This document shows, piece by piece, positions 14,563-31,905 of a DNA stretch of 64,000 bases. The notes beneath the pieces were generated by a model. That model was not told the origin of the DNA and ran no database searches. It saw only the letters and a program-made list of their open reading frames with translations. Every line of letters starts with the position of its first letter. The first letter of the stretch is position 1. The stretch lies in assembly GCF_030812335.1 (NCBI RefSeq), contig NZ_JAUSSN010000004.1, forward strand, positions 310,001 through 374,000. The letters are read 5' to 3'. Both the position numbers and the translations under genes were made by a program. Source of the stretch: Pseudarthrobacter oxydans. Its GTDB lineage: Bacteria; Actinomycetota; Actinomycetes; Actinomycetales; Micrococcaceae.

Positions 14563-15765
14563 CTAAAGTGAGGCCGGGGCATCGCCGAAGTCCCGGATGG
14601 GCAGGCGTTCGCCGTTGCGGCGGGCGGACTCGTGGGCCACGATGCCCGGAAGCGTGAACCGTGCCGCGGTCCAGGCGTTGACCGGCGGAAGCGAGCGGTT
14701 ATTGACCGCCGTGACGAAGTCATCAACGAGGAAGTGATGGCTGCCTTCGTGTCCGTTCGGTGCTCCGTGGAACTCCTTTGGAAGACGGCTGCTGTCGTGG
14801 ACGGGCGCCAGACCCGACACGAAGGCCTCTCGGAGCTCTGGTGCCACATTGGCTAGGGACGGATCATCAAGGGACATACTGGGCCTTGACTCCATCTGCT
14901 CCGAAATGTCGTGAACGTCGGTCTTGTCCTGCCAGACCGTGACCCTGGCCAACTGCTCGAAGCTGGCCTCCGTGCCGAAGAACCTGAAGCGTGACTCGCG
15001 GAAGTGGGACGGGTAACCCACACGGCGCATCTCGTTGGTGCGCATCACGCCGCCGTCGTTCAGTTCGAACAGGGCCGTTGCGTTTGAGAAGTCGTTGTCG
15101 AACATACTCACGTTCTTATCGAACACGCCGTCCTGCCGGTCATCTTTCACACCCACGCAACTGACGCTCACTGCGTGTGCCGGCAGTGCTCCCAGGACGC
15201 CCCCGATGGCGTGCGTCGGGTACAGCATGGGCGGGTAACTGGCGGTCTCCTTCCAGCGCTCTCCCCCGCTGTGCTGGAACGCGTCGTAGAAGCCGAGGTC
15301 CATGTCATGGACGTAGTCGCCCTCGGTGTAGAAAACACGGCCGAACCTGCCCGCTTTTTGCTGACTGCGCGCATAGACGGTCGCAGGGTTGTAATAGCTG
15401 GTCTCACCCATCATGTAGACGTTCCGGGTCTCCCGGACGGCATCGATGATGCGGGCAATCTCGTCCTCGGTGACTGCCATGGGGACGGCGGAGTAGACAT
15501 GCTTCCCGGACCGGAGGGCCTGCTCCACCAGGGGGCCGTGTGTCCACCGTTGGGTGAAGATGGCGACTGCGTCGACGTCGGATGCCAGGAGATCCTCGAA
15601 GCTGCCAACGGAACCTGCCAGGCCGTAGCGTTCCATTGCTTCGGCCGCACGCTCCGGCCGTTCGTCCACGACGAACACCTCGGTTACACCCGGGTGCAGA
15701 TTGAACAGATGCGCAAACTGACCGCCGAACTGGCCCACGCCCACCACACCGATGGAAAACGTCAT
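14563..15765 (-). CDS. Gfo/Idh/MocA family oxidoreductase
   Basis: This 400-residue dehydrogenase has the Rossmann motif GVVGVGQFGGQFA and, at the usual EKP position, SAVPMAVTEDE, so the normal Glu-Lys is replaced by Val-Pro with no lysine. A long C-terminal alpha/beta domain contains a GSHHFLVDDFV segment. The start has a strong GAGGAGAG site. It heads an operon with the LacI gene and is divergent from the alpha-galactosidase importer cluster, so a galactoside-derived substrate is plausible. The altered EKP motif makes the catalytic role uncertain. Confidence 0.88.
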   Translation of the reverse strand: MTFSIGVVGVGQFGGQFAHLFNLHPGVTEVFVVDERPERAAEAMERYGLAGSVGSFEDLLASDVDAVAIFTQRWTHGPLVEQALRSGKHVYSAVPMAVTEDEIARIIDAVRETRNVYMMGETSYYNPATVYARSQQKAGRFGRVFYTEGDYVHDMDLGFYDAFQHSGGERWKETASYPPMLYPTHAIGGVLGALPAHAVSVSCVGVKDDRQDGVFDKNVSMFDNDFSNATALFELNDGGVMRTNEMRRVGYPSHFRESRFRFFGTEASFEQLARVTVWQDKTDVHDISEQMESRPSMSLDDPSLANVAPELREAFVSGLAPVHDSSRLPKEFHGAPNGHEGSHHFLVDDFVTAVNNRSLPPVNAWTAARFTLPGIVAHESARRNGERLPIRDFGDAPASL

Positions 15766-15880
15766 CGTTTCTCTCCTCTACCCAGCTTCATCTTTATTCA
15801 GATTCTGCCGCTTTTGATCTACACGCGTCAACACCTTGGCGCAGAAAATAAAAACTTCCTCAATTTATGGGGCAAAGGGG

Positions 15881-15909
15881 TTGCTCATCGTCTTCTACTC
15901 GTATAGATT
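15881..15909 (+). promoter_or_regulatory. Candidate promoter of the importer/alpha-galactosidase operon
   Basis: TTGCTC (15881-15886) and TAGATT (15904-15909) are separated by 17 bases in an AT-rich stretch about 45 bases before the permease start, with AGGAAGG at 15941 as ribosome site. No palindromic operator is evident around it. Confidence 0.42.
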
Positions 15910-15954
15910 CGCTGGTGATTGTTAGTCACGTCACATATTCAGGAAGGGTCGATG

Positions 15955-16899
15955 ATGACCACCCTTACCAAGCACCCACCGGCCGCAGCGCACAAGGCGC
16001 CCCAGCGTCCAGGCCGGGGCCGTCGCATGGCCAAACTGCGGGACGTCAGGATCGCGCTGCTGTTCATCCTCCCGGCGATGATCGGCCTCGTGGCCTTTTG
16101 CCTGGTCCCGACCATCCGCGGCGTCTACCTCAGCTTCACCGAGTACAGCATCCTCGGAGAGCCCGAATGGATCGGCGTCGACAATTACACGGCGATCTTC
16201 CAGGATGAGCTCTTCTGGAACGCGATGGCCGTGACCCTCCAGTACGTCGGTATCAACATCGGCCTGCAGACCGTCATCGCCCTGGGCCTGGCGCTTCTCA
16301 TGCACCGTGTGGCGAAGTCAACCTTTGTCCGCGGCGCGCTGCTGCTGCCGTTCTTTGTCGCAAACGTGGTCGTGGCCCTGCTCTGGTTCTGGATGCTTGA
16401 CTACCAGCTGGGCATTGTCAACGAGATCATCAGCTGGCTGGGACTTCCCCGCATCGCCTTCTTCGGCAGCGAGCAGTGGGCCATCCCCACCATCGCCTTC
16501 GTCAACGTCTGGAAGCACATGGGCTACACCGCCCTGCTGATCTTCGCCGGCCTCCAGGCAATCCCCCACCATGTCTACGAAGTGGCTTCCCTGGACGGAG
16601 CGTCGCACACGAGGACGTTCTGGAGCATTACGATGCCGCTGCTGCGCCCCGTCCTCGCGCTGGTCATGGTCGTCAGCGTCATCGGCTCCTTCCAGGTCTT
16701 CGATACCGTCTCGATCACCACCGGCGGCGGTCCCATCAATGCCACCCGCGTTATCCAGATGTACATATACCAAAAGGCCTTCGGCGAATCGGACTTCGGA
16801 TACGCCTCGGCCCTGTCCGTCATTCTCTTCGTAATCCTCGCCCTGGTGGCCTTCATCCAGATGAAGTTCCTCAAGGGCAACGAATCGGACCTGGACTAA
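15955..16899 (+). CDS. Carbohydrate ABC transporter permease, MalF type
   Basis: This 314-residue permease has a basic N-terminus and about six transmembrane segments, the first around ALLFILPAMIGLVAFCLVPT, with the EAA loop YEVASLDGASHTRTF. ATG 15955 is preferred over 15952 because it is seven bases from AGGAAGG. Unlike the other clusters here, the permeases come before the binding protein. It works with 16912-17811 and 17886-19238; the downstream GH36 gene suggests alpha-galactosides (melibiose/raffinose type) as cargo. Confidence 0.92.
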   Translation: MTTLTKHPPAAAHKAPQRPGRGRRMAKLRDVRIALLFILPAMIGLVAFCLVPTIRGVYLSFTEYSILGEPEWIGVDNYTAIFQDELFWNAMAVTLQYVGINIGLQTVIALGLALLMHRVAKSTFVRGALLLPFFVANVVVALLWFWMLDYQLGIVNEIISWLGLPRIAFFGSEQWAIPTIAFVNVWKHMGYTALLIFAGLQAIPHHVYEVASLDGASHTRTFWSITMPLLRPVLALVMVVSVIGSFQVFDTVSITTGGGPINATRVIQMYIYQKAFGESDFGYASALSVILFVILALVAFIQMKFLKGNESDLD

Positions 16900-16911
16900 G
16901 GAATCCCAGCC

Positions 16912-17811
16912 ATGACTACTCAGACCCTCACCCGCAAACCGACCAACTGGCGCCGCATCGGCGCGTGGTCGCTCGTGGTCCTTGCACTCATTGCCACGAT
17001 CCTCCCGTTCCTCTGGATGTTGCGTACGGCGCTCTCCACCAATGGCTCGCTGGCCTCCAACTCTGCGAATCTCCTGCCGGCAGACTTCTCCTTGGGCGCT
17101 TTCAAACGTGTCTTCGGAATGCAGTCCACCGAGGAGGCCATCGCAGATGGCGGTTCCGGTGCCGCCATCGACTTCTGGCTGTACCTGCGCAACTCGATCC
17201 TCTTTGCCACCGTAACTACCGCAGCGCAGGTCTTCTTCAGCGCCCTTGCCGCCTACGCCTTCGCCCGGCTCCGCTGGCCCGGACGGGACAAAGTCTTCGC
17301 CCTGTTCCTGGCCACCATGATGATTCCGGGTATCTTCACCGCCCTGCCCAATTTCCTCCTCATCAAGAACCTGGGTTTGCTGAACACGTTTGCCGGAATG
17401 ATGCTGCCCTTCCTGTTCATGTCCGCGTTCGCCATCTTCTTCCTGCGCCAGTTCTTCCTGAGCATGTCCCGCGAAGTGGAAGAAGCAGCAATGCTCGACG
17501 GCGCCAGGCACCTGCGCATCTTCTTCCAGATCGTTCTGCCCAACGCCGCTGCCCCCCTGGCCACCCTCGCGCTGCTGACCTTCGTGGGGCAATGGAACGA
17601 GTACTTCTGGCCACTGCTGGTTGCCACTGACGAGAACGTCCGGGTCCTCACCGTGGGCCTGAGCGTCTTCAAATCACAGTCCCCGCAGGGCGCCCCGGAC
17701 TGGTCCGGCCTCATGGCCGCCACCATCGTTGCCGCACTGCCGGTCCTTATCCTGTTCATCGCCTTCGGCAAGAGAGTGATCAACTCCATCGGATTCTCCG
17801 GCATCAAATAG
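16912..17811 (+). CDS. Carbohydrate ABC transporter permease, MalG type
   Basis: This 299-residue permease starts 12 bases after its MalF partner. It has six transmembrane segments and the EAA loop EEAAMLDGARHLRIF, ending GKRVINSIGFSGIK as in MalG-type proteins. A periplasmic loop around residues 45-85 is longer than in the 5087 and 38472 paralogues, which may reflect docking to its own binding protein. It is part of the second importer operon. Confidence 0.92.
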   Translation: MTTQTLTRKPTNWRRIGAWSLVVLALIATILPFLWMLRTALSTNGSLASNSANLLPADFSLGAFKRVFGMQSTEEAIADGGSGAAIDFWLYLRNSILFATVTTAAQVFFSALAAYAFARLRWPGRDKVFALFLATMMIPGIFTALPNFLLIKNLGLLNTFAGMMLPFLFMSAFAIFFLRQFFLSMSREVEEAAMLDGARHLRIFFQIVLPNAAAPLATLALLTFVGQWNEYFWPLLVATDENVRVLTVGLSVFKSQSPQGAPDWSGLMAATIVAALPVLILFIAFGKRVINSIGFSGIK

Positions 17812-17885
17812 ACCCGCCCGCCCAACCACTTCCCCAGCACACACTCCACTCCGGGCAACCTCCTGCCCTTTTCGAAAGGTCAATC

Positions 17886-19238
17886 ATGAAAAAATTCCTC
17901 GGCGCCGTCGCTGCCGCCGCAGCCATCGCCATCTCCCTCTCCGCCTGTGGGGGTGGCGGATCCACCCCCACAACCGCCGGTGAGGCCAAGGGCGAGATCA
18001 ATTATTGGCTGTGGGATTCCAATCAACTCCCGGCCTACAAAGAATGCGCTGCCAATTTCACCAAGGCCAACCCGGACATCAAGGTCAAGATCACCCAGCG
18101 GGGCTGGGGCGATTACTGGACCACGCTGACCAACGGGTTTGTCGCCGGCAATGCTCCGGACGTCTTCGCCAACCACCTTTCGAAGTACCCCGAACACGCT
18201 GCGAAGAAGCAGTTGCTGGACCTCAATGAAGCTGTCGAGAAGGACGGCATCAAGCTGGACATCTACAACGAGGGCCTCGCCGATCTTTGGATAGGCCAGG
18301 ACGGCAAGCGCAACGGCCTGCCCAAGGACTGGGACACGGTTGGCCTGTTCTACAACACAGCCATGACCGACGCCGCCGGGATCACTGCCGAACAGATGGC
18401 CAGCCTGGACTGGAACCCACAGGACGGCGGCAGCTACGAAAAGACCATCGCCCACCTCAGCGTAGACAAGATGGGTGTGCGCGGCGACGAGCCGGGCTTC
18501 GATAAGAACAACGTCGCCGTCTACGGCCTCGGCCTGGAAAACTCCGGTACCGGCCAGGGACAGACGCAGTGGAGCTTCCTCACTGGGACTACCGGCTGGA
18601 CTCACACCGACAAAAACCCGTGGGGCACCAAATTCAACTACGACGATTCAAAGTTCCAGGAAACGATCAAGTGGTGGGCCGGCCTCGCGAACAAGGGTTA
18701 CATGCCCAAGCTTGAAACGACCGTCGGCGCCAGCGTCGCAGACAACTTCGGCGCAGGGAAGGCCGCCATCAATACCAACGGCTCGTGGATGATCGGCCAG
18801 TACTCCAGCTACAAGGGCATCAAAGCCGGCATCGCTCCCACCCCGGTAGGCCCGGAGGGCAAGCGTGCGTCCATGTTCAACGGGCTGGCCGACTCCGTCT
18901 GGGCCGGCACCAAGAACCCGGCTGCTTCCGTCAAGTGGGTCGAGTACCTCGCCTCGGCCGACTGCCAGGACGTCGTGGCCTCCAAGGGCGTTGTCTTCCC
19001 CGCCATCAAGAGTTCCTCCGAGAAGGCCGCCGCGGCCTTCGAAGCTAAGGGCATCGACGTCAGCGCATTTACCACGCACGTCACGGACGGTACGACCATC
19101 CTCTTCCCCATTACCGATAACTCGGCCAAGGTCGATGGACTCATGGGACCGGCCATGGACGCTGTGATGTCCGGCAAGAAGGACGCCGGCACCCTGAGCG
19201 AGGCCAACGAGAAGGTAAACGCCCTCTTCAAAAAGTAG
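17886..19238 (+). CDS. Extracellular sugar-binding lipoprotein
   Basis: This 450-residue binding protein has a short signal peptide (MKKFLGAVAAAAAIAISL) with lipobox LSAC and the mature start GEINYWLWDSNQLPAY. NPDIKVKITQRGWGDYW is a typical family-1 segment. A GAAAGG site precedes the ATG. It lies between the permeases and the GH36 alpha-galactosidase in one operon, so it probably captures an alpha-galactoside. It is only distantly related to the binding proteins at 10606 and 36180. Confidence 0.94.
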   Translation: MKKFLGAVAAAAAIAISLSACGGGGSTPTTAGEAKGEINYWLWDSNQLPAYKECAANFTKANPDIKVKITQRGWGDYWTTLTNGFVAGNAPDVFANHLSKYPEHAAKKQLLDLNEAVEKDGIKLDIYNEGLADLWIGQDGKRNGLPKDWDTVGLFYNTAMTDAAGITAEQMASLDWNPQDGGSYEKTIAHLSVDKMGVRGDEPGFDKNNVAVYGLGLENSGTGQGQTQWSFLTGTTGWTHTDKNPWGTKFNYDDSKFQETIKWWAGLANKGYMPKLETTVGASVADNFGAGKAAINTNGSWMIGQYSSYKGIKAGIAPTPVGPEGKRASMFNGLADSVWAGTKNPAASVKWVEYLASADCQDVVASKGVVFPAIKSSSEKAAAAFEAKGIDVSAFTTHVTDGTTILFPITDNSAKVDGLMGPAMDAVMSGKKDAGTLSEANEKVNALFKK

Positions 19239-19331
19239 GCCAGCAGCTTCATAGCTTGCGCGCCGCGGGCGATGTCTTCCCCGCGGCGCGCAACCCCACC
19301 CCTTTACTCCCACGCAGAAGGACAGCATTTC

Positions 19332-21554
19332 ATGGAACCCCTCCACCTCCGTTCCGCCGGAACCAGCCTGGTGATCAGCTTCGACAGCGGCGAGGCTGAG
19401 GTCATCCATTGGGGCGCGGATCTTGGCAGCACGCTGCCGGACCTCGCTATCCTTACGGCCGCTATCCCGCCCTCGTCCATCGACGCCACCGTTCCCGCAG
19501 GCCTGCTGCCGCAGGCCTCATCCGCCTGGCGCGGCCGACCCGCTCTGCGCGGTCACCGCATTGCCGACGGCGTTCCCGGCTACGACTTCTCCGTACGGCT
19601 CCGCGTGGCTGAGGTGGCATCGGACGGCGCTGGCGCCGTCGTCATCATCCAGGCAGACGCCGACGCCGGGATCCGCGTATCGTCCGTCCTGACCCTGCAT
19701 GACCGCGGCCTGCTGGAACTACGCCACACCATCACCAACACCGGAACGACGCCTTACCAGCTCGACGAGTTGGCCACTGTGCTCCCGGTGGCACCCGCCG
19801 CCGTCGAACTCCTTGACCTGACCGGGCGCTGGTGCCGGGAACGCCACCCGCAGCGCCGCCCCATCCAGCAGGGCACGTGGGTCCGCACCGGCCGGCACGG
19901 CCGGACCGGGCACGACTCCTCGCTGCTTTTCGCCGCCGGCACCGCCGGCTTCGGCAACGGCCACGGGCAGGTCTGGGCCACGCATCTGGCCTGGAGCGGC
20001 AACCACGAGCAGTTTGCGGACAGCATCGGCGATGGCCGCACCATGATCGGCGGCTCCGAGCTCCTCGGCCCGGCCGAAGTCATCCTCCAGCCGGGTGCCA
20101 GCTACACCACCCCTGCGCTGTTCGCCGCCTACTCCGGCCGCGGCCTGGACGGCATCAGCGAGGCCTTCTACAGCTGGTTCCGCAACCGCCCGCACCACGT
20201 GCTGCCCGCGGCCGCCACCGGCCTGCCCGCCGGAAAGCCGCGTCCGGTGGTGCTGAACACCTGGGAAGCGGTCTACTTCGACCACAACCTGTCCACCCTG
20301 ATCGAACTGGCCGAGTCCGCTTCGGAGCTCGGCGTGGAACGTTTTGTGCTCGACGACGGCTGGTTCCGCGGACGCCGCGACGACCACGCCGGCCTCGGCG
20401 ACTGGTACGTGGATGAAACCCTCTGGCCCAACGGGCTCACACCGCTCATCGACGCCGTGACCTCCCGCGGAATGGAGTTCGGGCTCTGGGTGGAACCCGA
20501 AATGGTTAACCTGGACTCGGACATTGTCCGTGCACATCCGGAGTGGATTGCGGGGCCCTCTGCCCAAAGCTACAAGGACGGCGGCAGACTGCCGCTTGAA
20601 TGGCGGAATCAGCACATCATCAACCTGGTGAATCCGCAGGCCTGGCAGTACATCTACGACCGGATCGATGCCCTCCTGCGGGAGAATAACATCAGCTACC
20701 TCAAGTGGGACCAGAACCGCGACCTGCTGGAACACGGCCATGCCGGCCGCTCTTCGGTGCACGAACAGACCCTCGCCGCCTACCGCTTGTTCGACGAACT
20801 CCGCAAGGCGCATCCCGGGGTCGAAATTGAAAGCTGCTCCTCAGGCGGCGCCCGCGTGGACCTGGGTATCCTGGAACGCACCGACCGGATCTGGGGTTCG
20901 GACTGCAACGACGCGCTGGAACGCCAGACCATCCAGCGCTGGACCGGCGTGGTGGTTCCGCCGGAGCTGGTGGGCGGACACATCGGCCCCACGGCATCGC
21001 ACACCACGGCGCGCACGCACGACCTGTCCTTCCGCGCCATCACTGCCCTGTTCGGCCACTTCGGCATGGAATGGGACGTCCGCAGCGTTCAGGGCACCGA
21101 GCGGGAGGAACTCAAGCGCTTCATTGGACTCTACAAGGAACACCGGGGGCTGATCCACAGCGGCCGGATGGTCCGCGCGGACCTGGCCGACGAGTCCCTG
21201 ATGCTGCACGGTGTTGTTGCCGACACCTACGCGGCAGCCAATGTCTCAGCCGGCACCGTTGCATCTGGTGCTACGGCGGCACTGTTCGCTCTCGTGTGCA
21301 CGCGGACAACGTTCGCCGAGCAGCCCGGACGGATCACAGTTCCTGGTCTGGAGGGCGGACGCGCCTACCGGGTGGAGGCGATCTTCCCGGCACCGGGCGA
21401 CGCTGATTACGCACACACGTTCACGCAGGCCCAGCCGCCGGCATGGCTGGCCTCGGGAGCCGAAGCCAGCGGCAGTTTCCTTGCCGAGGTCGGGCTCCCG
21501 ATGCCGGCCCTCAACCCGGAACACGCCCTGTTGTTGAAGTTCATGGCGCTCTAG
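19332..21554 (+). CDS. Alpha-galactosidase, glycoside hydrolase family 36
   Basis: This 740-residue cytoplasmic enzyme removes alpha-galactosyl residues with retention. An N-terminal beta-supersandwich precedes the catalytic barrel; FVLDDGWFRGRRDD, FGLWVEPEMVN and the nucleophile D460 in YLKWDQNRDL are present, as is D524 in GSDCNDALER, the acid/base region. The ATG at 19332 follows AGAAGGACAG; an earlier in-frame ATG adds 20 non-family residues. It is the last intact gene of the importer operon. It aligns throughout with the second GH36 protein at 24181, with nearly the same catalytic positions, but lacks that protein's 14-residue duplication. Confidence 0.95.
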   Translation: MEPLHLRSAGTSLVISFDSGEAEVIHWGADLGSTLPDLAILTAAIPPSSIDATVPAGLLPQASSAWRGRPALRGHRIADGVPGYDFSVRLRVAEVASDGAGAVVIIQADADAGIRVSSVLTLHDRGLLELRHTITNTGTTPYQLDELATVLPVAPAAVELLDLTGRWCRERHPQRRPIQQGTWVRTGRHGRTGHDSSLLFAAGTAGFGNGHGQVWATHLAWSGNHEQFADSIGDGRTMIGGSELLGPAEVILQPGASYTTPALFAAYSGRGLDGISEAFYSWFRNRPHHVLPAAATGLPAGKPRPVVLNTWEAVYFDHNLSTLIELAESASELGVERFVLDDGWFRGRRDDHAGLGDWYVDETLWPNGLTPLIDAVTSRGMEFGLWVEPEMVNLDSDIVRAHPEWIAGPSAQSYKDGGRLPLEWRNQHIINLVNPQAWQYIYDRIDALLRENNISYLKWDQNRDLLEHGHAGRSSVHEQTLAAYRLFDELRKAHPGVEIESCSSGGARVDLGILERTDRIWGSDCNDALERQTIQRWTGVVVPPELVGGHIGPTASHTTARTHDLSFRAITALFGHFGMEWDVRSVQGTEREELKRFIGLYKEHRGLIHSGRMVRADLADESLMLHGVVADTYAAANVSAGTVASGATAALFALVCTRTTFAEQPGRITVPGLEGGRAYRVEAIFPAPGDADYAHTFTQAQPPAWLASGAEASGSFLAEVGLPMPALNPEHALLLKFMAL

Positions 21555-21652
21555 CCGTCGACAAAACCAAACCGCCGACTGCCCCGGCGTTCCCCAACTC
21601 TCAGTAGTAGAGGGGACGTCGGGGTAGGCTCCGCCCCGGCAGAGAAAGGCAC

Positions 21653-22041
21653 ATGAGAATACCGGTCACAGCCCGAAGTCCCCGTGGGCGCGCGAGATGC
21701 TCCTGGTCATCGGCGGCGACAACACCCAGGACGGTACATGCCTGCGGGACTACATCCATGTGGTTGACCTCGCTGACGGCCGCATGGCACCTGAACCACT
21801 CCGTGGACCGCCTCGGAGTCTTCGGGCTGGCTGAAAGTCCTGAACTCCTTCGAAAAAGCGGGGGGCCAGCCTATCGCCTACGGCATCGCCAGACGCCGCA
21901 CCGGGCGACGTTCCCGCATGCTGCCGCAGCCACGTCCCCTGGCAGGCCTCCTCTGGTCCACCACCAAGACCGTGGATCAGATGTGCGAAGACCACTGGCC
22001 CTGGCAGAAAAACCCCGGCTATGCCGGCAAGGACGGAGACT
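21653..22041 (+). pseudogene. galE remnant (UDP-glucose 4-epimerase), internally deleted and frameshifted
   Basis: The first seven codons (ATGAGAATACCGGTCACAGC) match the start of intact galE at 33071. From about 21674 the sequence matches galE from about 33685 onward: REMLLVIGGDNTQDGTCLRD, then YIHVVDLADGRMA in another frame from the ATG, and later WSTTKTVDQMCEDHWPWQK. About 590 bases are missing and at least two frameshifts are present. A good ribosome site (GAGAAAGG) remains. It may still be transcribed with the upstream GH36 gene. Confidence 0.82.
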
Positions 22042-22044
22042 CTC

Positions 22045-22812
22045 ATGACCAACCCGGGCACTCACCCTGCCGGTGCGTCGGAGGCGCATTCGGGCCAGTT
22101 CCGACAGGCCACAGGCATCCGGGACGTCGCTGCCGCCGCCGGTGTGTCGACCGCTACCGTCTCGCGTGCCCTGCGCGGACTCCCCCGCGTTTCACAATCG
22201 ACCCGACAAAGAATTCTGACTGCCGCAGCCGACCTTGGCTACGTTGCTTCGTCCGCAGCATCGGAGCTGGCTCGGGCACGGGGCACCCGGAGGACCGCGC
22301 TGCCTAAGCAGCTGCAGCGGGTTGAGCCTCCTGCTTCGACCACCGCAAGATGCTCCCGCGCGGGGCCCTTCGAAATGTCCGATCACCCGGCGTCACCGAG
22401 CCGGGGGACCATCCTCGTTGTCAACGCCCTAACGGGTCCCGGCAGACCCGACGAGCACCTGGAACCTACCAGCGCGGAGATCGAGCAATTTATCCAGTCG
22501 GTTGCGTCGGCACACGGCTTCACCGCCTGCATGAAGTTTTGCAATGAAGCCGGCATGATGGACACTGTTCGGGCCGCCGCTGCCCAGTCAGTCGGGATTG
22601 TCATCAACACAGGCGGCTTCAGTCCCGCCTCACCCGTACTGCACAACACGTTAGCCAGCACGTCGGTTCCCACTGTCGAAATCCGCCTGAATAACATCGC
22701 TCAATTCTCCGCATTCACAGTCGCGATCTCCGGCGCTGGCATTTACGGCTACAAACTGGCCATCGACTATTTGAGCACAATCGTTCAGCCGGGGCGGGGG
22801 GTGCCAGGGTAA
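22045..22812 (+). CDS. LacI-type HTH fused to type II dehydroquinase-like domain
   Basis: This 255-residue protein starts at ATG 22045 (GGAG seven bases upstream). Residues about 24-70 form a LacI helix-turn-helix (IRDVAAAAGVSTATVSRALR) with hinge-like AASELARARGT. After a Pro/Ser/Arg-rich linker (about 81-120), residues 122-246 align with type II 3-dehydroquinate dehydratase (AroQ): NEAGMMDTVRAAA, GIVINTGGFSPASPVL, PTVEIRLNN, GIYGYKLAIDYL. Catalytic features are lost: the REPxxYG tyrosine/arginine segment is degenerate, THTS is SPAS, EVHxSN is EIRLNN, and the RExFRxxS segment is deleted. It is probably a sensor rather than an enzyme, or a decaying gene; it sits next to the broken galE. Confidence 0.75.
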   Translation: MTNPGTHPAGASEAHSGQFRQATGIRDVAAAAGVSTATVSRALRGLPRVSQSTRQRILTAAADLGYVASSAASELARARGTRRTALPKQLQRVEPPASTTARCSRAGPFEMSDHPASPSRGTILVVNALTGPGRPDEHLEPTSAEIEQFIQSVASAHGFTACMKFCNEAGMMDTVRAAAAQSVGIVINTGGFSPASPVLHNTLASTSVPTVEIRLNNIAQFSAFTVAISGAGIYGYKLAIDYLSTIVQPGRGVPG

Positions 22813-22925
22813 GGGGCAGTCCTGCGGTAAATCATCGTTGTCCCGCTAGCGACATAGCCGCCTGGCATCCCGACATCCCCGAGGGGGTCGCCCTGCCTAA
22901 GGACGAGGGCCCGGCACTTTCGGTC

Positions 22926-24044
22926 TCAGCCGGAGACAGACCGCTGGATGGCGACGGCAGCAGCGCCTCGCGCCCACTGGTTGAACCCGAGTGATTCCAG
23001 CCGGATGTCCACGGGCCCGGCGTCCGGGTCGCGGTCAGCCGCCACGGCTTCGCGCAGGGGCTCATCGATCAGCTTCAGCATGCCGATTCCCTCTCCGGCC
23101 AGAACGACGGTGTTCACCATGGCGAGATTCGCGACAGCGGCTATCATCCTGCCCAGACCGCGTGCCGCTGCGTTCACGATGTAGGCGGCGGCAGGCTGGC
23201 CCTCCGCAGCGAGGTTCAGCACCTCCTCATAGTCAACCGGCCTGCCTAACGCGGAAGCAGCCTGCGAACAGATGCTCTGGGTCGAAAGCAAAGCCGTGGA
23301 ACAGCCCCTGTGCCCGGCCACGCAGAGGGGCCCGGCCGGGTCTAGCGGAAAGTGCCCGCCAAGTCCCAGGCCGGTGTCAGGAACGCTGATAACCCGGTTG
23401 TTGATGACAAGGCCGTAGCCAACGCCCGCGCCGATGGTAATCAGGGCAAAGCTCTCGACTCCGCGGCCCACACCGAACCACTGTTCGGCAACGGTCAGTG
23501 CGACAACGTCGTTTTCTATGACCACAGGCAGACCCAGTTCCTTCTCCAAAGCCTGCTGCAGCGGCACGTTCCGCCAGTCCAGGAATGGAGCGCGGAGCAC
23601 GGTTCCGGCCGCGTCGACATGTCCGCCGATACTGATCCCGATCCCGGATACTTCAATCTGGCCGGACCGCGTCAGAGTCCGCACACTATCTGCGAGTCCA
23701 TGAACGACTCCCGTCAGGCTGCGGTCGCTGAGGCGAAACTCGGAACTCGCCAGCTGTTCTGCCCTCATGTCGGTCAGCACGGAGGCAATCCCGTCGCCGG
23801 TGATCTTCGCCCCGATGAAGCGCTGGGAGTCCTGCCGAATATCGAGAAGGCGGACGGGGCGCCCCACCGTCCCATCATTCGCCAGCGGACCCTCAACCAG
23901 GAGGCCCGCATCGATCAAAGGCTTTCCAAGCCGGCTGAGGCTGGCCACAGACAAACCGAGCCGCACCGCCAGTTGCCCGCGGGACATCGGTCCGTTGACC
24001 AGGATGGTCCGGGTGAGTTCCCGCACGGATTCTTCGAGTTCCAC
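22926..24044 (-). CDS. ROK family transcriptional regulator
   Basis: This 372-residue protein has an N-terminal winged helix (MSRGQLAVRLGLSVASLSRL, residues about 19-38) followed by a ROK sugar-kinase-like domain (GIGISIGGHVDAAG; VIENDVVALTVAEQW; TIGAGVGYGLVINN). The usual CxCGxxGCxE zinc motif is altered: CVAGHRGCSTAL lacks one cysteine and the final glutamate. It is divergent from the GH36/importer operon at 24181 with a 136-base shared region, so it very likely controls that operon with a sugar as effector (NagC/XylR type). Confidence 0.9.
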   Translation of the reverse strand: MELEESVRELTRTILVNGPMSRGQLAVRLGLSVASLSRLGKPLIDAGLLVEGPLANDGTVGRPVRLLDIRQDSQRFIGAKITGDGIASVLTDMRAEQLASSEFRLSDRSLTGVVHGLADSVRTLTRSGQIEVSGIGISIGGHVDAAGTVLRAPFLDWRNVPLQQALEKELGLPVVIENDVVALTVAEQWFGVGRGVESFALITIGAGVGYGLVINNRVISVPDTGLGLGGHFPLDPAGPLCVAGHRGCSTALLSTQSICSQAASALGRPVDYEEVLNLAAEGQPAAAYIVNAAARGLGRMIAAVANLAMVNTVVLAGEGIGMLKLIDEPLREAVAADRDPDAGPVDIRLESLGFNQWARGAAAVAIQRSVSG

Positions 24045-24145
24045 TTCCGACTCCCTTCATCATCACGCCTGGTTTTTTTCATCGTGAAGCTAATTTACCT
24101 CAATGACGCCTCTTCAGAGGGCCGCATGGCCGACGCCCATGACCT

Positions 24146-24181
24146 TTGACACACTATTTTTTTTGCGGTAAAAATAAATCA
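24146..24181 (+). promoter_or_regulatory. Leaderless promoter of the second GH36 operon
   Basis: TTGACA (24146-24151) and TAAAAA (24169-24174) are separated by 17 bases, and the ATG at 24181 begins 6 bases after the -10. The expected transcript would start at the ATG or within a base or two, and no Shine-Dalgarno exists, so translation is probably leaderless. Confidence 0.75.
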
Positions 24182-26394
24182 TGTCTTCTCATCTCTTCCA
24201 CCTTCACGCAGGAGGAACCGCCGTTATCGTCGATGCCTCCCTGGCCGGAATGCCTGCCATTCTTCACTGGGGACCGGAGCTGGGCCCGCTCGGCCCCGTT
24301 GAACTGGGCTCCATGAGTACGGCGGCCAAACCGCAAAGGGTCTCTGGAGGAATCGATCACCCTGCACGGCTCACCCTCCTGCCGCAGGAAGCGCAGGGCT
24401 GGCAGTCGACCCCCGGAATCTCCGGCCACCGCTCGGGCACAGGTTTCTCGCCGGACTTTCGAGTAACGGACATCTCCGGCACCGGGTTCTCGCCCGACTT
24501 CCAAGTCACGGACATCGCTGGATCGGGCAATAGCCTCACCATCACGGCCGAGGATCCCCACACAGCACTGAGCCTGAGCAGCCGGCTCGAAGTGACGGCC
24601 TCTGGACTCTTCAAACAGCAGCACACGGTGGCCAACACAGGTGACGGTGTCTACGATCTCGACTCGCTCGCACTGTTCTTCCCGCTGCCAGCCGACGCCA
24701 CTGAAGTCCTTGACACCACAGGCCGGCACCTGAAGGAACGATCGCCGCAACGCCGTGAGCTGACAGTTGGCGCACACGTGCGGGAAAGCCGGCGCGGGCG
24801 CCCCGGTGCCGACGCATCACTGCTCATGACGGCCGGGGCCAAGGGTTTCGGCTTCCGCACCGGTACGGTTCACGCCGTACATCTGGCCTGGAGCGGGAAT
24901 CACCGCCTCAGTGCCGAGCGGAGCATCAACGCTCAAAACTTCCTGACCGCCTCCGAGCTCCTGCTCCCGGGTGAGGTGCGCCTGCAGCCGGGCGAGAGCT
25001 ACAGCACCCCTTGGGCCATCGGCTCCTGGGGAAACGGGCTGGACGAACTGGCCTCGCGCTTCCACGAAGACCTCCGGGCACGCCCCCACCACCCACGGTC
25101 CCCGCGGCCTATCACTATGAACAGCTGGGAAGCCGTCTACTTCGACCACGACCTCCCCCAGCTGAAGGCAATAGCCACCGCAGCGGCTGCGGCGGGAGCC
25201 GAACGCTTCGTCCTCGACGACGGCTGGTTCCTCGGGCGCCGCGACGACACCGCGGGTCTTGGCGACTGGATTGTGGACAGAACCGTTTGGCCGGATGGCC
25301 TCAGCCCGATCATCGACCACGTCCGCGGCCTCGGAATGCAGTTCGGCCTTTGGTTTGAGCCCGAAATGGTCAATCCGGACAGCGAACTGGCCCGGGCCCA
25401 CCCCGAGTGGATACTGCAGGTGAACGGCCGGATGCCCGTTTCGGCCCGCCAGCAACAGGTCCTGAACCTGGCCCTTCCAGCCGCGTGGGATTACATTTTC
25501 CAGGCGATGCACAGCATCTTGGATGAATACCCGATCGACTACATCAAATGGGATCACAACCGCGACCTGCTCGACGCCGCCAGCACTGCCTCGGGTCAGG
25601 CAGCGGTGCACGAAAACACCAGTGCCGTGTATCGGCTGATGGAAGCCCTCAAGGAGCATCACCCCGGCCTGGAAATCGAGTCGTGTGCCTCCGGCGGGGC
25701 ACGCGTGGACCTTGCCGTGCTGGACAGGACCGACAGGATCTGGACAAGTGACTGCATAGATCCGTTGGAACGTCTCGACAATCAGGCCTACACCGGACTC
25801 CTTGTGCCCTACGAGCTGATGGGAGCTCACATCGGCGGGCCCACCTCGCACTCGACGCGGCGCAGCCACAGCCTTGACTTCCGTGCTGCCACCGCGCTCT
25901 TTGGCCACTATGGCATCGAATGGGACATCTCGGACCTCCCTCAGGAGGAACTGGCGGCGCTGCGCGGCTGGGTGGACTTCCACAAGGCCAACCGGTCCCT
26001 CTTCCACACCGGCCGCAGCGTGCATTCGGATCACCCCGACCCCTCCGTGGACCTGCGGGGCGTAGTGGCGAAGGACCAGCAGCGGGCCGTCTTCGTCTAC
26101 ACACAGCGCAGTGCCAGCGTCACCTACCCTTCGGGTGTATTCACGCTGCCGGGCCTGGACCCGGACACCGTGTACTCGATAGCTCTCAGCGTCCCGCTAA
26201 CGGATGCGGCCAGCCCCGGCCAGTCGGCGCTGGAGTGGGCCCAAAAGCCGGTATTCCTCAGCGGCCGCGTCCTCGAGACCGTCGGATTGCAGGCACCCGT
26301 GCTCTTCCCGGAGACAGCCATCATCATCACGGCCGAATCCGCAGAGGGTCCGGCAGCTTCTCTTCCTCCGATCTCCGTGAGCACGAAGGGATAG
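24181..26394 (+). CDS. Alpha-galactosidase, glycoside hydrolase family 36
   Basis: This 737-residue cytoplasmic GH36 enzyme starts at a probably leaderless ATG. Motifs match those of the 19332 gene: FVLDDGWFLGRRDD, FGLWFEPEMVN, nucleophile D458 in YIKWDHNRDL and D524 in TSDCIDPLER. Residues 86-113 are a tandem duplication of 14 residues (GTGFSPDFxVTDIx) in the N-terminal beta domain. It is the first gene of an operon with a binding protein and two permeases; the stop is 3 bases before the next ATG. The divergent ROK regulator probably controls it. The GH36 remnant at 12103 is its closest relative in the window. Confidence 0.94.
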   Translation: MSSHLFHLHAGGTAVIVDASLAGMPAILHWGPELGPLGPVELGSMSTAAKPQRVSGGIDHPARLTLLPQEAQGWQSTPGISGHRSGTGFSPDFRVTDISGTGFSPDFQVTDIAGSGNSLTITAEDPHTALSLSSRLEVTASGLFKQQHTVANTGDGVYDLDSLALFFPLPADATEVLDTTGRHLKERSPQRRELTVGAHVRESRRGRPGADASLLMTAGAKGFGFRTGTVHAVHLAWSGNHRLSAERSINAQNFLTASELLLPGEVRLQPGESYSTPWAIGSWGNGLDELASRFHEDLRARPHHPRSPRPITMNSWEAVYFDHDLPQLKAIATAAAAAGAERFVLDDGWFLGRRDDTAGLGDWIVDRTVWPDGLSPIIDHVRGLGMQFGLWFEPEMVNPDSELARAHPEWILQVNGRMPVSARQQQVLNLALPAAWDYIFQAMHSILDEYPIDYIKWDHNRDLLDAASTASGQAAVHENTSAVYRLMEALKEHHPGLEIESCASGGARVDLAVLDRTDRIWTSDCIDPLERLDNQAYTGLLVPYELMGAHIGGPTSHSTRRSHSLDFRAATALFGHYGIEWDISDLPQEELAALRGWVDFHKANRSLFHTGRSVHSDHPDPSVDLRGVVAKDQQRAVFVYTQRSASVTYPSGVFTLPGLDPDTVYSIALSVPLTDAASPGQSALEWAQKPVFLSGRVLETVGLQAPVLFPETAIIITAESAEGPAASLPPISVSTKG
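24436..24519 (+). repeat. 42-base tandem duplication inside the GH36 gene
   Basis: Two adjacent 42-base units encode GTGFSPDFRVTDIS and GTGFSPDFQVTDIA. They differ at roughly nine bases but at only two residues, so most changes are silent. The paralogue at 19332 has no second copy. Confidence 0.8.
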
Positions 26395-26397
26395 CAC

Positions 26398-27678
26398 ATG
26401 TTCCTCCTTTTGCGAGGGCGGACCAAAGCCCTCATCGCCGCACTAGCCGCAGCGATGCTGGCCAGTTGCGCCGCGCCACCGGCAGAGAATGAAGTCACGC
26501 TGAATTTCTTCCAGTTCAAACCCGAAGCGGTACAGGAATTCTCCGCTCTCATCGACGAGTTCGAAGCCGCGAATCCCGGCATCCAGGTGGTGCAGAACAA
26601 TGTCCCTGACCCGGACACCGCTATCCGGACCCTCCTTGTGAAAGACAAGACACCGGATGTGCTGACCCTCAATGGAAATGCCAGCTTTGGCCTCCTCGCG
26701 AAGGCCTGCGTGTTCGCCGACCTCAGCCAGGAACCCTCGGCAAAAGACGTTCTTCCGGCAGTGCAGGACATCCTCAACGCCAACGGCCGCTGCGAGGGCT
26801 CCGAGATTAACGGACTGCCGATGGCGAACAATGCCAGCGGGATCCTGTACAACCCGGAGATTTTCGCCAAGTACGGGGTTTCCGTGCCCCAGACCTGGGA
26901 TGAGCTGATTGCTGCGGCCGAGACGTTCAAAGCCAACGGGGTCGCACCGTTTTACATGACCCTCAAAGACGCCTGGACCACCTCCCCGGCCCTGGTAAAC
27001 CTGGCCGCCCAGCTGCAACCGAAAGGCTTCTTTGACCAGTTGACCGCCGCCGGTGCCAACCGGGACAACAGCCCCGTATCTTTCAGCAAGGACTACCCGG
27101 AAGTCGCCGACAAGTTGCTCAAGCTCTTCGACTACGCCCAGCCAGGCGCGATCGGCGTGGACTACGCCTCCGGCAACAAGGCTTTCGCCGACGGCAAAGC
27201 GGCAATGTACCTCAACGGCAGCTTCGCCGTGCCCGCCATCAGAGCCGCTAACCCGGACGCTAACATCGCCTCGTTTCCCTACCCCGTCACGAACGATCCG
27301 GCAAAGACCACGGTGGTATCCGGTGTCGACGTCGCGCTGGCCGTGGGCAGGGAGACGCCCCACCGGGCTGAAGCCCAGAAATTCATCAACTTCCTGATGA
27401 CCAAGGAAGTGATTGACAGGTACGCCAGGAATCAGAGCGCCTTCGCCCCGCTACGGTCAGCCGCGCCGCAACAGGACCCGGCACTGCAGGGCCTGGCCCC
27501 ATACTTCACCTCCGGCAAACTTGATGGCTACATGGACCACCGGCTGCCGCCCAGCATCCCACTGGTCAACATCACCCAGCAGTTCGTTCTGGACGGAGAC
27601 AAAGCCCGTTTCCTGAACAGCCTGGACAACGAATGGTTCAAGATAGCCGCCCGCACGCCCAAGCGAGGTGACCAGTAA
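26398..27678 (+). CDS. Extracellular sugar-binding lipoprotein
   Basis: This 426-residue protein has a signal peptide with lipobox LASC and the mature start EVTLNFFQFKPEAV. It contains NNASGILYNPEIFAKYGV, common in oligosaccharide-binding proteins, and KTTVVSGVDVALAVG. It starts 3 bases after the GH36 stop and its stop codon TAA directly precedes the ATG of the MalF-type permease, so the four genes form one operon. It probably binds an alpha-galactoside. It is not a close relative of the 17886 protein despite the parallel gene context. Confidence 0.93.
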   Translation: MFLLLRGRTKALIAALAAAMLASCAAPPAENEVTLNFFQFKPEAVQEFSALIDEFEAANPGIQVVQNNVPDPDTAIRTLLVKDKTPDVLTLNGNASFGLLAKACVFADLSQEPSAKDVLPAVQDILNANGRCEGSEINGLPMANNASGILYNPEIFAKYGVSVPQTWDELIAAAETFKANGVAPFYMTLKDAWTTSPALVNLAAQLQPKGFFDQLTAAGANRDNSPVSFSKDYPEVADKLLKLFDYAQPGAIGVDYASGNKAFADGKAAMYLNGSFAVPAIRAANPDANIASFPYPVTNDPAKTTVVSGVDVALAVGRETPHRAEAQKFINFLMTKEVIDRYARNQSAFAPLRSAAPQQDPALQGLAPYFTSGKLDGYMDHRLPPSIPLVNITQQFVLDGDKARFLNSLDNEWFKIAARTPKRGDQ

Positions 27679-28542
27679 ATGACGCAGTCCAGCAAGGCCT
27701 TCTACTGGATGGCGGTTCCCGCGCTGGTCCTCTTCGTGACGCTGCATACGGTCCCGGCGCTAACCGGAGTCTTCTTCAGCTTCACGGACTACGCCGGCTA
27801 CGGGAAGTGGAACTTCGTCGGGCTCGAAAACTACCTCAGCCTCTTCAAGGACGACCGTGTCCTCTCCTCCTACAGCTTCACGTTCCTGTTCGCCATCACC
27901 ACTACCGTTGTTGTCAACATACTGGCCCTAGGCCTTGCCCTACTGCTGAATGCCAAGATCAAATTCCAAACGGCATTCCGGGGCCTCTTCTTCATCCCGA
28001 ACGTGCTGGCGATCCTCATCATCGGTTACGTCTTCAACTTCATCTTCTCTAACTCGCTCCCCCTGCTGGGCCAATGGCTAGGAATCGACTGGCTCTCGAC
28101 CTCGATCCTGGCCAACGAGGACCTCGCCTGGCTGGGCATCGTCGCGGTCTCGGCTTGGCAGGCCATCGCATTCAGCGTGATCCTCTACCTCGCCGGTCTG
28201 CAGACCATCCCCGCGGAACTGTATGAGGCAGCGGGCCTGGACGGCGCCAGCTACTGGCGACAGTTCAGCTCCATCACTTTTCCGATGATCGGGGCCTTCT
28301 TCACCATCAACATGGTGCTCTCGCTGAAAGGGTTCCTGCAGGCCTTCGACCAGATAGTCGCTCTCACGAACGGCGGCCCCGGAACCGCCACCGAATCCGT
28401 CGCCATGGTCATTTACCGCGGCGGCTTCCAAGGCGGGGAGTACGGATACCAGATGGCCAATTCCGTCGTATACCTGCTGGTGATCGTGGCGGTGTCCGTG
28501 ATCCAGCTCCGGACGCTCCAGCGCAAAGAGGCGGACTTCTAA
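27679..28542 (+). CDS. Carbohydrate ABC transporter permease, MalF type
   Basis: This 287-residue permease has six transmembrane segments (first FYWMAVPALVLFVTLHTVPA) and the EAA loop YEAAGLDGASYWRQF. Its start abuts the stop of the binding-protein gene and its stop overlaps the MalG-type start (TAATG). GAGGTGACC upstream serves as ribosome site. It forms the channel for the third importer. Confidence 0.93.
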   Translation: MTQSSKAFYWMAVPALVLFVTLHTVPALTGVFFSFTDYAGYGKWNFVGLENYLSLFKDDRVLSSYSFTFLFAITTTVVVNILALGLALLLNAKIKFQTAFRGLFFIPNVLAILIIGYVFNFIFSNSLPLLGQWLGIDWLSTSILANEDLAWLGIVAVSAWQAIAFSVILYLAGLQTIPAELYEAAGLDGASYWRQFSSITFPMIGAFFTINMVLSLKGFLQAFDQIVALTNGGPGTATESVAMVIYRGGFQGGEYGYQMANSVVYLLVIVAVSVIQLRTLQRKEADF

Positions 28543-29435
28543 TGACCAGAACCACCGACACCCCGGCAACGGTCCGTCCCGTCACGGAACAACGCCGAAG
28601 CCCCCGCCGGGGCCGGCTCAGCGGCGGCGTGAACTGGCCGCTCACAGCCCTGGCAGCCGTCCTGGCATTGACCGTGCTCATCCCGCTCTACCTCACGGTG
28701 GTGACCGCACTCAAGACACCGGACCAGCTTGGCGGCTCCGGCTTCGAATGGCCCACCCGCATCCGGCTGGAGAACTTCTCCGATGCATGGAACCTGACCA
28801 ACTTTCCGCGCGCCCTGCTGGTCTCCGCGATCGTCACGGTGGGTGCGGTTGTCCTGACCATCCTGTCCAACTCCCTCGTGGCCTACGCGATCGCGCGGAA
28901 CCTGCATAAGCCCTTCTTCAAGTTCCTCTACTACTTCTTCGTCGCTGCGCTATTCGTCCCGTTTCCCATCATCATGTTGCCGGCCACCAAGGAAATGGCC
29001 GTCCTGGGCCTGGACAACCCGGTGGGGCTGTTCCTGCTCTACACCGTCTACGGACTCAGCTTTAACGTGTTCGTCTACACCGCTTTCATCCACTCCATCC
29101 CCCGAGAACTCGAAGAAGCGGCAACCATGGACGGAGCCTCCACCTGGGGCATCTTCCGCCGGATCATCTTCCCGCTGCTCACCCCGATGAACGCCACCGT
29201 GGGAATCCTGACCTGCCTCTGGGCCTGGAACGACTTTCTGCTGCCCCTCGTCATTCTCTCGGACCCCGCGGCGCGCACACTTCCCTTGGCGCAGTATGTG
29301 TTCCAGAGCCAGTTCAACACCAACTACACGGTCGCCTTTGCGTCCTACCTGATGGCCATGGCGCCACTGCTCCTGGTCTACCTCTTCGCGCAGCGCTGGG
29401 TGATCTCCGGCGTCATGCGCGGCTCCATCAAGTGA
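28542..29435 (+). CDS. Carbohydrate ABC transporter permease, MalG type
   Basis: This 297-residue permease has a basic, Thr/Pro-rich cytoplasmic N-terminus, six transmembrane segments and the EAA loop EEAATMDGASTWGIF, ending QRWVISGVMRGSIK. It overlaps the MalF-type gene by one base. It is the last transport gene of the operon; the ATPase is not encoded here. Confidence 0.93.
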   Translation: MTRTTDTPATVRPVTEQRRSPRRGRLSGGVNWPLTALAAVLALTVLIPLYLTVVTALKTPDQLGGSGFEWPTRIRLENFSDAWNLTNFPRALLVSAIVTVGAVVLTILSNSLVAYAIARNLHKPFFKFLYYFFVAALFVPFPIIMLPATKEMAVLGLDNPVGLFLLYTVYGLSFNVFVYTAFIHSIPRELEEAATMDGASTWGIFRRIIFPLLTPMNATVGILTCLWAWNDFLLPLVILSDPAARTLPLAQYVFQSQFNTNYTVAFASYLMAMAPLLLVYLFAQRWVISGVMRGSIK

Positions 29436-29547
29436 CGTTTAACCGCCAACTCGCCAACCCTTGTCGTCATTCCGCGGACGTAGAGAAGTCAGTGGGCCAG
29501 AAGGCAGACGCAGGTGAAATTCATTCGAAAAAGGAGAATTACCAAGA

Positions 29548-29766
29548 ATGGTCATCGAACATCACCGACGGGAAGTACACATTTCAAGCCGTAGCCAGCT
29601 CGAGGACGCGTTGAATGCCGCAGAGAGGGACTTGAGGACAGCCGCCAGCTTTGACGGAACGCATGGCATCTTGACAACGAGGCGCTGGCCGGATCTTTAC
29701 GTCCTAGAACTCAGCGACCAAGTCCCTTACGGCCTCACCCATGAAAGAGAGGCCAAACAGGCGTAA
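29548..29766 (+). CDS. Small hypothetical protein
   Basis: This 72-residue frame has AAGGAG 11 bases before its ATG and protein-like composition (SRSQLEDALNAAERDLRTAA, an amphipathic helix; then GILTTRRWPDLYVLELS). It lies 112 bases after the permease operon and 17 bases before the convergent DeoR gene. I do not recognise a family. No membrane segment or signal is seen. An overlapping frame starting at 29432 looks less protein-like and was not called. Confidence 0.55.
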   Translation: MVIEHHRREVHISSRSQLEDALNAAERDLRTAASFDGTHGILTTRRWPDLYVLELSDQVPYGLTHEREAKQA

Positions 29767-29782
29767 CAGGAGATTCAGACGT

Positions 29783-30580
29783 CTACCCAATTTTGGCTGC
29801 GGCCCCGTTGGCGGTGACTGCCAGGCGAAGCCGGCCAACGCGCTCACCTAGGATCCGCTGCGCTTCGCCGGGCAGGCCTTCGTCGCTGATGAGCTCGTCA
29901 GCTTCCTCCAGGCCGGCGATGGTGCTGATGCCGATGGTTCCCCACTTCGTGTGGTCGGCCAGTACCACTACGCTGCGGGAAGCCGCTATGAAGGCACGGT
30001 TCGTTTCGGCTTCCAGCAGGTTGGGCGTGGTGAACCCGGCGTCGGCGTCAACGCCGTGGACGCCGAGGAAGAGAATATCGAGGTGCAACTGTTTGAGCGC
30101 CGAGGTGGCCAGCGGACCAACCAACGCGTCCGAGGGGGTGCGTTCGCCCCCGGTGAGGATCACCGCTGACGGCGAGGTGCCCCGATGAAAGATGTCGGCG
30201 ATCCGCACCGAGTTGGTGACCACCGTGATCCGTGGCCCGGTACACAGCAGCTGGGCCAGGGCCCATGTGGTGGTTCCCGCGCTGAGTCCTACGGCCATGC
30301 CCTCGCGAACCTGGGCGGCGGCCTCGTGGGCGATGGCCATTTTTTCCTTTTGCAGCTGGGTGACTTTCAGCTCAAACCCCGGCTCATGGGTGCTTACGCC
30401 GCCGGGCAGCTTAGCGCCGCCGTGGATCTTTTCCAGGGCTCCGGCCGAATCCAGCGCTTCGATGTCGCGCCGGACGGTCATGAGCGACACGCCCAGCATC
30501 TGTGCGAGGTCCGCGACGCGGACGATCCGTTCGCGCTGGACCGCCGCGATGATGGCGGAGTGGCGGGCTGGGGCTAGCAT
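29783..30580 (-). CDS. DeoR/GlpR family transcriptional regulator
   Basis: This 265-residue repressor has an N-terminal winged helix (RIVRVADLAQMLGVSLMTVRRD) and a DeoR C-terminal sugar-phosphate-sensing domain (GLSAGTTTWALAQLL; FLGVHGVDADAGFTTPNLLEA; VVLADHTKWG). ATG 30580 is chosen because GAAGGA lies upstream and the HTH begins normally; an earlier in-frame start adds 27 non-family residues. It is divergent from galT-galK-galE and probably represses that operon with a phosphorylated galactose-pathway intermediate as inducer. Confidence 0.92.
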   Translation of the reverse strand: MLAPARHSAIIAAVQRERIVRVADLAQMLGVSLMTVRRDIEALDSAGALEKIHGGAKLPGGVSTHEPGFELKVTQLQKEKMAIAHEAAAQVREGMAVGLSAGTTTWALAQLLCTGPRITVVTNSVRIADIFHRGTSPSAVILTGGERTPSDALVGPLATSALKQLHLDILFLGVHGVDADAGFTTPNLLEAETNRAFIAASRSVVVLADHTKWGTIGISTIAGLEEADELISDEGLPGEAQRILGERVGRLRLAVTANGAAAKIG

Positions 30581-30715
30581 GCTGCGTCCTTCATGTGGGG
30601 CGGACAGGAGACTCGGCGGGCCATCCGATCGCGACTGCGCCGGTCTTCTTTTCCCGCCCATCCTAATCTTCCACCTGAATCCGACGATAGTCGCATTGAT
30701 TCCTTATGTTCTCTA

Positions 30716-30750
30716 TTGTTTGAAATTGTTTTTTAGTGTAAAAATAGACT

Positions 30751-30751
<1 letters not shown>
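30716..30751 (+). promoter_or_regulatory. Leaderless promoter of galTKE
   Basis: TTGTTT (30716-30721) and TAAAAA (30739-30744) are 17 bases apart, and the galT ATG at 30751 follows the -10 by 6 bases, the same geometry and the same -10 as the 24146 promoter. No Shine-Dalgarno precedes the ATG. Confidence 0.7.

Positions 30752-31901
<1,150 letters not shown>

Positions 31902-31905
<4 letters not shown>

Follow-up and report, generated by a model that had tools for sequence, protein, structure and literature searches.

Is a repressor-type DNA-binding domain fused to a catalytically dead enzyme a working regulator or a broken gene? This question is raised by an open frame of 255 codons at 22045-22812 (forward strand) of a 64,000-nucleotide stretch of Pseudarthrobacter oxydans DNA, which we refer to as the window. 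The frame encodes a LacI-type helix-turn-helix (HTH), a linker, and a type II dehydroquinase (AroQ) domain that has lost its catalytic residues. An earlier sequence-only reading had called both domains, likened the protein to the fungal quinate repressors, suggested that it may bind a quinate- or shikimate-like or other small polyol ligand, and left decay or chance fusion as alternatives. Our analysis indicates that selection maintains the fusion, which is therefore more probably a working gene switch with an unusual architecture than a defunct gene. In the literature that we searched, we found no LacI-type regulator whose sensor core had been swapped for a dead metabolic enzyme.

A LacI-type HTH joined to an AroQ-like domain

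Domain profiles, a PDB search, and orthologues all identify 22045-22812 as a chimeric gene. Using Pfam, we found a LacI HTH (PF00356) at residues 25-67 (1.2e-15, 57.5 bits, cut-off 27) and a DHquinase_II domain (PF01220) at residues 140-243 (1.4e-11, 44.7 bits, cut-off 23.3). These were the only families to exceed their cut-offs: the periplasmic-binding-protein-like core had no Pfam match in the protein, whose C-terminal half is AroQ, and an AROM-type set with a type I dehydroquinase was not found. NCBIfam agrees with these calls, its LacI models matching the HTH part only, and the protein scores 44.5 bits against the aroQ equivalog TIGR01088, far short of the cut-off of 169.85. In a PDB sequence search, the best match was the Corynebacterium glutamicum dehydroquinase 8idu (2.4e-9, residues 129-246), and the structures nearest to the first half were LacI-family regulators. 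An in-frame ATG at 22021 gives an alternative product of 263 amino acids.

We also modeled the protein with AlphaFold, using an alignment of 27 sequences (mean pLDDT 77.1, pTM 0.58); live AroQ rows were among these and may bias the model toward the enzyme fold. The model contains HTH helices within residues 25-64, a weak helix at 70-82, a low-confidence stretch at 81-106, and a flavodoxin-type domain at 122-246. Type II dehydroquinases were the top-ranked Foldseek matches, and VIA-align superimposed 131 residues on 4v0s (Z 17.1, rmsd 2.3), with the AroQ half filling the match table. Both domain calls of the sequence-only reading are thus upheld by Pfam and PDB sequence search, and the AroQ call also by structure comparison, including the profile match and predicted dehydroquinase fold that it had proposed looking for.

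Taking these results together with the alignment of orthologues, we divide the forward-strand frame as follows. The LacI-type HTH spans residues 22-80 (22108-22284), and its segment STATVSRALRGLPRVS is identical in five genomes of the genus (G000, G179, G004, G223, and G122; G-numbers denote genomes of the genus set, and G000 is the genome holding the window). A hinge-helix-like segment at residues 70-82 (AASELARARG, 22252-22290), which coincides with the low-confidence model helix, is retained among the fusions. The linker (residues 81-119, 22285-22401) varies in length and sequence and is under no clear constraint. The AroQ-like domain occupies residues 120-246 (22402-22782).

The active site has been lost

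The available text of PMC10772564 names N12, R19, Y24, E99, H101, and R108 as catalytic in type II dehydroquinases, and N75, H81, D88, H101, S103, and R112 as substrate contacts. At these positions the window protein retains only N75 and E99; it lacks N12, R19, Y24, H81, D88, H101, R108, R112, and a Ser or Thr at 103, where live AroQ of the genus has Thr. In the alignment, the lid has been replaced: the former lid/catalytic loop, which carried N12, R19, and Y24, lies at about residues 128-139 (22426-22461, forward strand). The RExFRxxS segment is reduced to a shortened REEFRHHS remnant without R108 and R112 (about residues 217-224, 22693-22716, forward strand). The loss of catalytic residues noted from the sequence is therefore confirmed, with E99 the last of the catalytic six.

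We then scored the same positions in the five dead AroQ domains identified in the genus (G000, G179, G004, G067, and G066; see below). Catalytic residues are largely lost from the homologues as well, with only 6 of 30 cells retained (Glu99 in all five domains and Arg108 in G004). At N75, H81, D88, 103, and R112, 7 of 25 cells are retained. Glu99 and Gly77 are present in all five domains, Asn75 in two, and His81 and Asp88 in two others, namely G067 and G066. In the three closest fusions (G000, G179, and G004), H81, D88, 103, and R112 are all substituted. These three share a change of His101 to Arg, and catalysis was therefore most simply lost in their common ancestor.

The fusion is patchily distributed and linked to galE

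We searched 206 genomes of the genus with a two-row model of the fusion, which recovered it in G000, G179, and G004 (in G004 as two stretches). A four-row model gave G179, G000, G004, and G067 as full-length fusions. An HTH model had two matches in each of eight genomes of the same set; we examined seven of these, all of which are galE-linked, the eighth being G225. Besides the full fusions there are three variants, in G066, G223, and G122, for a patchy total of 7 of 206 genomes. In G066 (L097:971-1806), the HTH and the dead AroQ lie in different frames, which shows that one lineage at least can do without the gene. By eye, the linker of this variant contains a short direct repeat. Full-length fusions in three further genomes argue against a chance fusion, an alternative that had hinged on whether homologues share the domain order.

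No fusion was found outside the genus at strict thresholds among 395 family, 396 order, 396 phylum, and 124 family genomes, sets that overlap and that each include genomes of the same genus; the model used for the first three might miss sequences as diverged as G067. The other matches in the 395-family and 396-order sets were to the AroQ part, and the 396-phylum and 124-family sets returned the window's own match alone. A scan of the contigs of the window's genome gave 13 loci (12 HTH and one AroQ) and no fusion. Phages had no match to the fusion, and 15 plasmid records matched the AroQ part only (query residue 87 onwards), none with 80% coverage.

In all seven genomes, the 3' end of galE lies directly upstream of the fusion or its variant. 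The contigs of G066 and G067 end inside galE and contain only this 3' end; G179, G004, and G223 carry an intact galE here. In G004, galE, the fusion, and a live aroQ are consecutive. In G179, the order of galE, fusion, and convergent ROK gene is the same as in the window. The window's own galE at this place is broken, as the earlier reading had stated: a pseudogene remnant at 21691-22013 (forward strand; pieces 21691-21789 and 21822-22013) with a large deletion and frameshifts. The pseudogene here is galE and not the fusion. We considered dating by a slow, prolonged decay of galE and rejected it: the third-position skew is 0.37, versus 0.14-0.15, which points to recent death, and a galE that died recently is a weak clock. 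About 11 kb downstream, at 33071-34078, there is a second galE that is intact and whose product shares 87% identity with the G004 protein.

The neighborhood of the fusion contains an alpha-galactosidase-like gene upstream in the same direction (19272-21554, forward strand), syntenic in G179, and a ROK-type repressor gene convergent with the fusion (22926-24044, reverse strand), as in G179. The names alpha-galactosidase, ROK, DeoR, and MalR are ones that we assign from family resemblance. The gene at 19272-21554 and one at 24181-26394 are two alpha-galactosidase-like genes, 43% identical, on either side of the fusion and ROK gene. At 37687-38283, a 198-residue frame shares 74% identity, across 126 residues, with the frame of a solute-binding protein (10606-11964), and is possibly a broken paralogue. 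We found no promoter-like sites in 21400-23000, where the three terminator-like sites are all on the reverse strand, and no known RNA elements at gathering score in 15000-35000.

Origin of the two parts

When we built a FastTree phylogeny from 45 AroQ sequences, all five dead domains fell into a single clade (support 0.894) with long branches, in which G067 and G066 are sisters (0.975) and G004 is sister to G000 and G179 (0.994). The join of this clade to the AroQ of the genus has support 0.000, and long-branch attraction is possible. The common place behind galE gives independent support for a single origin. The AroQ part of the fusion is about 30-42% identical to the live AroQ copies of the genus. 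The AroQ of L063 (G000), L123 (G179), L026, L027, L029, and L030 form a clade of their own (support 1.000, branch 0.29), separate from the common AroQ of the genus.

The fusion HTH is 78% identical over 55 residues to that of a MalR-like paralogue (L068:3593-4789), which stands at the end of an operon with an SBP gene and two permease genes. The two group together in an HTH tree whose internal branching is weak, so that donor and recipient are not separated. In a simple history, an aroQ copy behind galE would have acquired a MalR-type HTH and then lost catalysis, after which some lineages would have lost the gene and others would have shortened, disrupted, or trimmed it.

Both domains are under purifying selection

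We estimated selection by the NG86 method with codon bootstraps. Between G000 and G179, omega is 0.11 (0.03-0.27) for the HTH, 0.35 (0.20-0.56) for the AroQ part, and 0.63 (0.28-1.41) for the linker. For the remaining pairwise AroQ comparisons of the four full fusions, omega is 0.33-0.58, with upper bounds at or below 0.91. Under the MG+F3X4 model of IQ-TREE (G000, G179, and G004), omega is 0.280 for the AroQ part (lnL -1200.66 vs -1227.10 at omega 1) and 0.135 for the HTH. Both parts have thus been under purifying selection since catalysis was lost. The pN/pS of the AroQ part is 0.46, compared to 0.10-0.22 for five genes of the same cluster; it is constrained, yet more loosely than an ordinary gene.

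These values bear on the idea that the gene is a leftover from a tandem duplication of aroQ, now functionless and decaying, that captured an HTH by chance. Such a relic could account for the patchy distribution, the frame break of G066, the broken galE adjoining the window gene, the fast linker and lid, and the lack of a dead domain between the HTH and live AroQ in G223 and G122. It is at odds with four full-length frames that are still open, and with omega values far under 1 for the HTH and the AroQ part alike in G000, G179, and G004, all of whose divergence followed the loss of catalysis. We consider a relic highly improbable. Decay, as the sequence-only reading had envisaged it, is not supported, given purifying selection on both domains and a window frame that is open beside a broken galE. 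Relaxed selection and chance fusion fare no better, given an AroQ omega of 0.28 and a fusion common to relatives.

The best-kept part of the dead domain corresponds to the enzyme's two-fold interface

As described in the available text of PMC10772564, the two-fold interface of the dehydroquinase dodecamer is formed by beta5 (V124, I125, and A126) and alpha5 (F135, I139, and an R134-E138 salt bridge). The corresponding block of the fusion, residues 226-246 (22720-22782, forward strand), is the best-kept part of its AroQ domain. In columns 122-141, 67 of 100 cells of the five dead domains retain the live consensus, compared to 215 of 600 elsewhere, and at live-invariant columns 42 of 50 cells do so in the block versus 128 of 360 elsewhere, cells that are not independent of one another. 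None of the 124 windows of 20 columns exceeds this block, with three overlapping windows tied. Identity among the dead domains is 0.69 in the block, compared to 0.26-0.44 elsewhere. The seven named interface contact positions retain 25 of 35 cells, and in four of the five domains the salt bridge position has Lys with Asp or Glu instead.

Judged from the alignment, this conservation fits a domain kept for two-fold assembly. Beta5 and alpha5 are also part of the fold core, and their conservation need not mean an interface. Because the best-kept part is the enzyme's two-fold interface, we favor, by inference, a dimerization scaffold over a quinate sensor. The dead AroQ would replace the LacI sugar-binding core as a scaffold that dimerizes via beta5-alpha5, and the dimer would let two HTHs and hinge helices hold a palindromic operator. 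To this explanation as a whole, a working chimeric transcription factor with a dead AroQ dimerization scaffold and a palindromic target, we give a chance only just short of even.

LacI proteins are usually under inducer control, and in a rival reading the active-site cleft has been reshaped for a different ligand that would switch DNA binding: a shikimate-like acid, or a sugar of the galactoside pathway or its phosphate. The retention of Glu99 and Gly77 in every dead domain, with Asn75 in two and His81 and Asp88 in two others, would suit such a ligand-responsive regulator. Against it, the three closest fusions have lost the original lid, H81, D88, 103, and R112, partly to differing residues, and conservation is among the lowest in the lid region and at positions 104-123. 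We regard this as rather unlikely. For quinate or shikimate sensing in particular, the outlook is unfavorable in the closest fusions, where these contacts are replaced and the interface kept; G067 and G066 do retain H81 and D88.

The retained interface block could also mean that the dead domain co-assembles with live AroQ, so that the HTH would tether or titrate the dehydroquinase, or the enzyme oligomer would serve as a DNA-bound scaffold. All five dead-domain genomes do have a live AroQ, and in G004 the two genes are adjacent. The live AroQ of G000 and G179, however, belong to the separate clade (1.000, branch 0.29) and have other residues in the block, and co-assembly seems improbable to us.

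Comparison with known systems

Like the LacI/GalR repressors, of which the MalR-like paralogue is the nearest, the fusion has an HTH and a hinge-like helix; unlike them, it has AroQ in place of the periplasmic-binding-protein-like core. It shares with AroQ the fold and its level of identity to the genus copies, and differs in lacking the catalytic residues and lid, in its attached HTH, and in its low TIGR01088 score. A further comparison is with the fungal proteins QutR, Qa-1S, and GaaX, which, in the available text of PMC6528562, are repressors derived from shikimate-pathway domains, with activity probably lost, and are linked to quinate or galacturonate use. According to the same text, their likeness is to the last three domains of AROM (C-terminal), one of which is a type I dehydroquinase, and they probably work through an activator protein. 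The dehydroquinase of our fusion is type II, and the fusion has its own DNA-binding domain. Of the proposed fungal parallel, our results support a repressor built from shikimate enzymes, in general terms, but not quinate-type sensing. GaaX, the galacturonate repressor related to AROM, lends the ligand sensor some support, as its authors suggest that an inducer could bind the dehydroquinase-like domain (available text of PMC6528562).

Candidate DNA targets

The recognition segment of the fusion differs from that of the MalR-like paralogue at one position, Leu for Val. The DNA-contacting residues, which we assign by analogy to LacI, are presumably the same in both. The 14-mer TGTAAACGCTTGCA is identical in G000, G004, and G179, some 100 bp upstream of the paralogue operon's SBP gene; in G004, the divergent gene across from it is one that we take to be an alpha-glucosidase. 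G000, G179, and G004 have 11, 6, and 9 sites of a tighter pattern, compared to 2, 2, and 3 for a reversed control, and several LacI proteins therefore probably share such sites; some of the 11 in G000 are near other LacI genes. Exact matches to the looser MalR-type pattern are missing from the window and from both orthologous loci (G179 and G004). In the window, TGNNANCGNTNNCA has no exact match, and TGNAANCGNTTNCA has two with one mismatch, within chance.

We also searched for central-CG palindromes with 6 of 7 or 7 of 8 pairs, and found none in nine intergenic stretches of the window and one in G179. The latter led to a conserved palindrome, TCTACTCGTATAGA, which occurs a single time upstream of the transporter genes in the fusion's cluster in G000 (15894-15907), G179, and G004. 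Its pattern, TCTACYCGTRTAGA, was drawn from the G000/G179 alignment, making the exact G004 match the sole independent test. In the two genomes other than G000 it lies at L065:3850-3863 and L066:17857-17870, and its chance expectation is 0.00 in the window and L065. The palindrome at 15894-15907 is possibly an operator of the fusion or, just as likely, that of the LacI-type gene at 13529-14557, which is conserved in G179.

The fusion might thus act in trans at MalR-type operators (TGTAAACGCTTGCA, at the alpha-glucoside/maltose-type ABC operon), in which case galactoside use would be prioritized, or at the palindrome conserved upstream of the transporter/alpha-galactosidase cluster to which it belongs. 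Because the fusion loci have no MalR-type site, G000 has 11 sites of the shared type, and its own cluster has another palindrome, the target is inferred from HTH likeness, and is the weakest step of the explanation.

An HTH in frame with live AroQ

In G223 (L047:904-1896) and G122 (L096:823-1749), the HTH shares one open frame with an intact AroQ, which is the single PF01220 match of each genome; all five dead-domain genomes have at least one further intact AroQ elsewhere. The linkers, of 72 and 73 codons, are stop-free in the fusion frame only, and shuffled linkers are stop-free at frequencies of 0.090 and 0.165, before a one-in-three factor for frame. A search of the G122 linker for a remnant of the dead domain gave one by eye only, and none by blastn. 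One reading of these frames is that the AroQ fold serves as a dimerization core for the LacI HTH, that live AroQ re-captured the HTH, and that the sole dehydroquinase of G223 and G122 would be a DNA-binding regulator. We think this unlikely; if true, an essential shikimate-pathway enzyme would be a trigger enzyme reporting shikimate flux. If translation began internally, at the usual aroQ ATG, the enzyme would be made on its own instead of as a fused protein.

Within one genus, we see the dead domain in a row with the live enzyme, standing alone, reduced in size, and split by a frame break, and the HTH in frame with a live enzyme, and with several stages at hand the step from enzyme to regulator is directly testable. 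Just upstream of the aroQ ATG, a KNAR-like run is in frame in L003, L008, L017, L028, and L047 and in another frame in L096; it is either a conserved leader or an earlier start.
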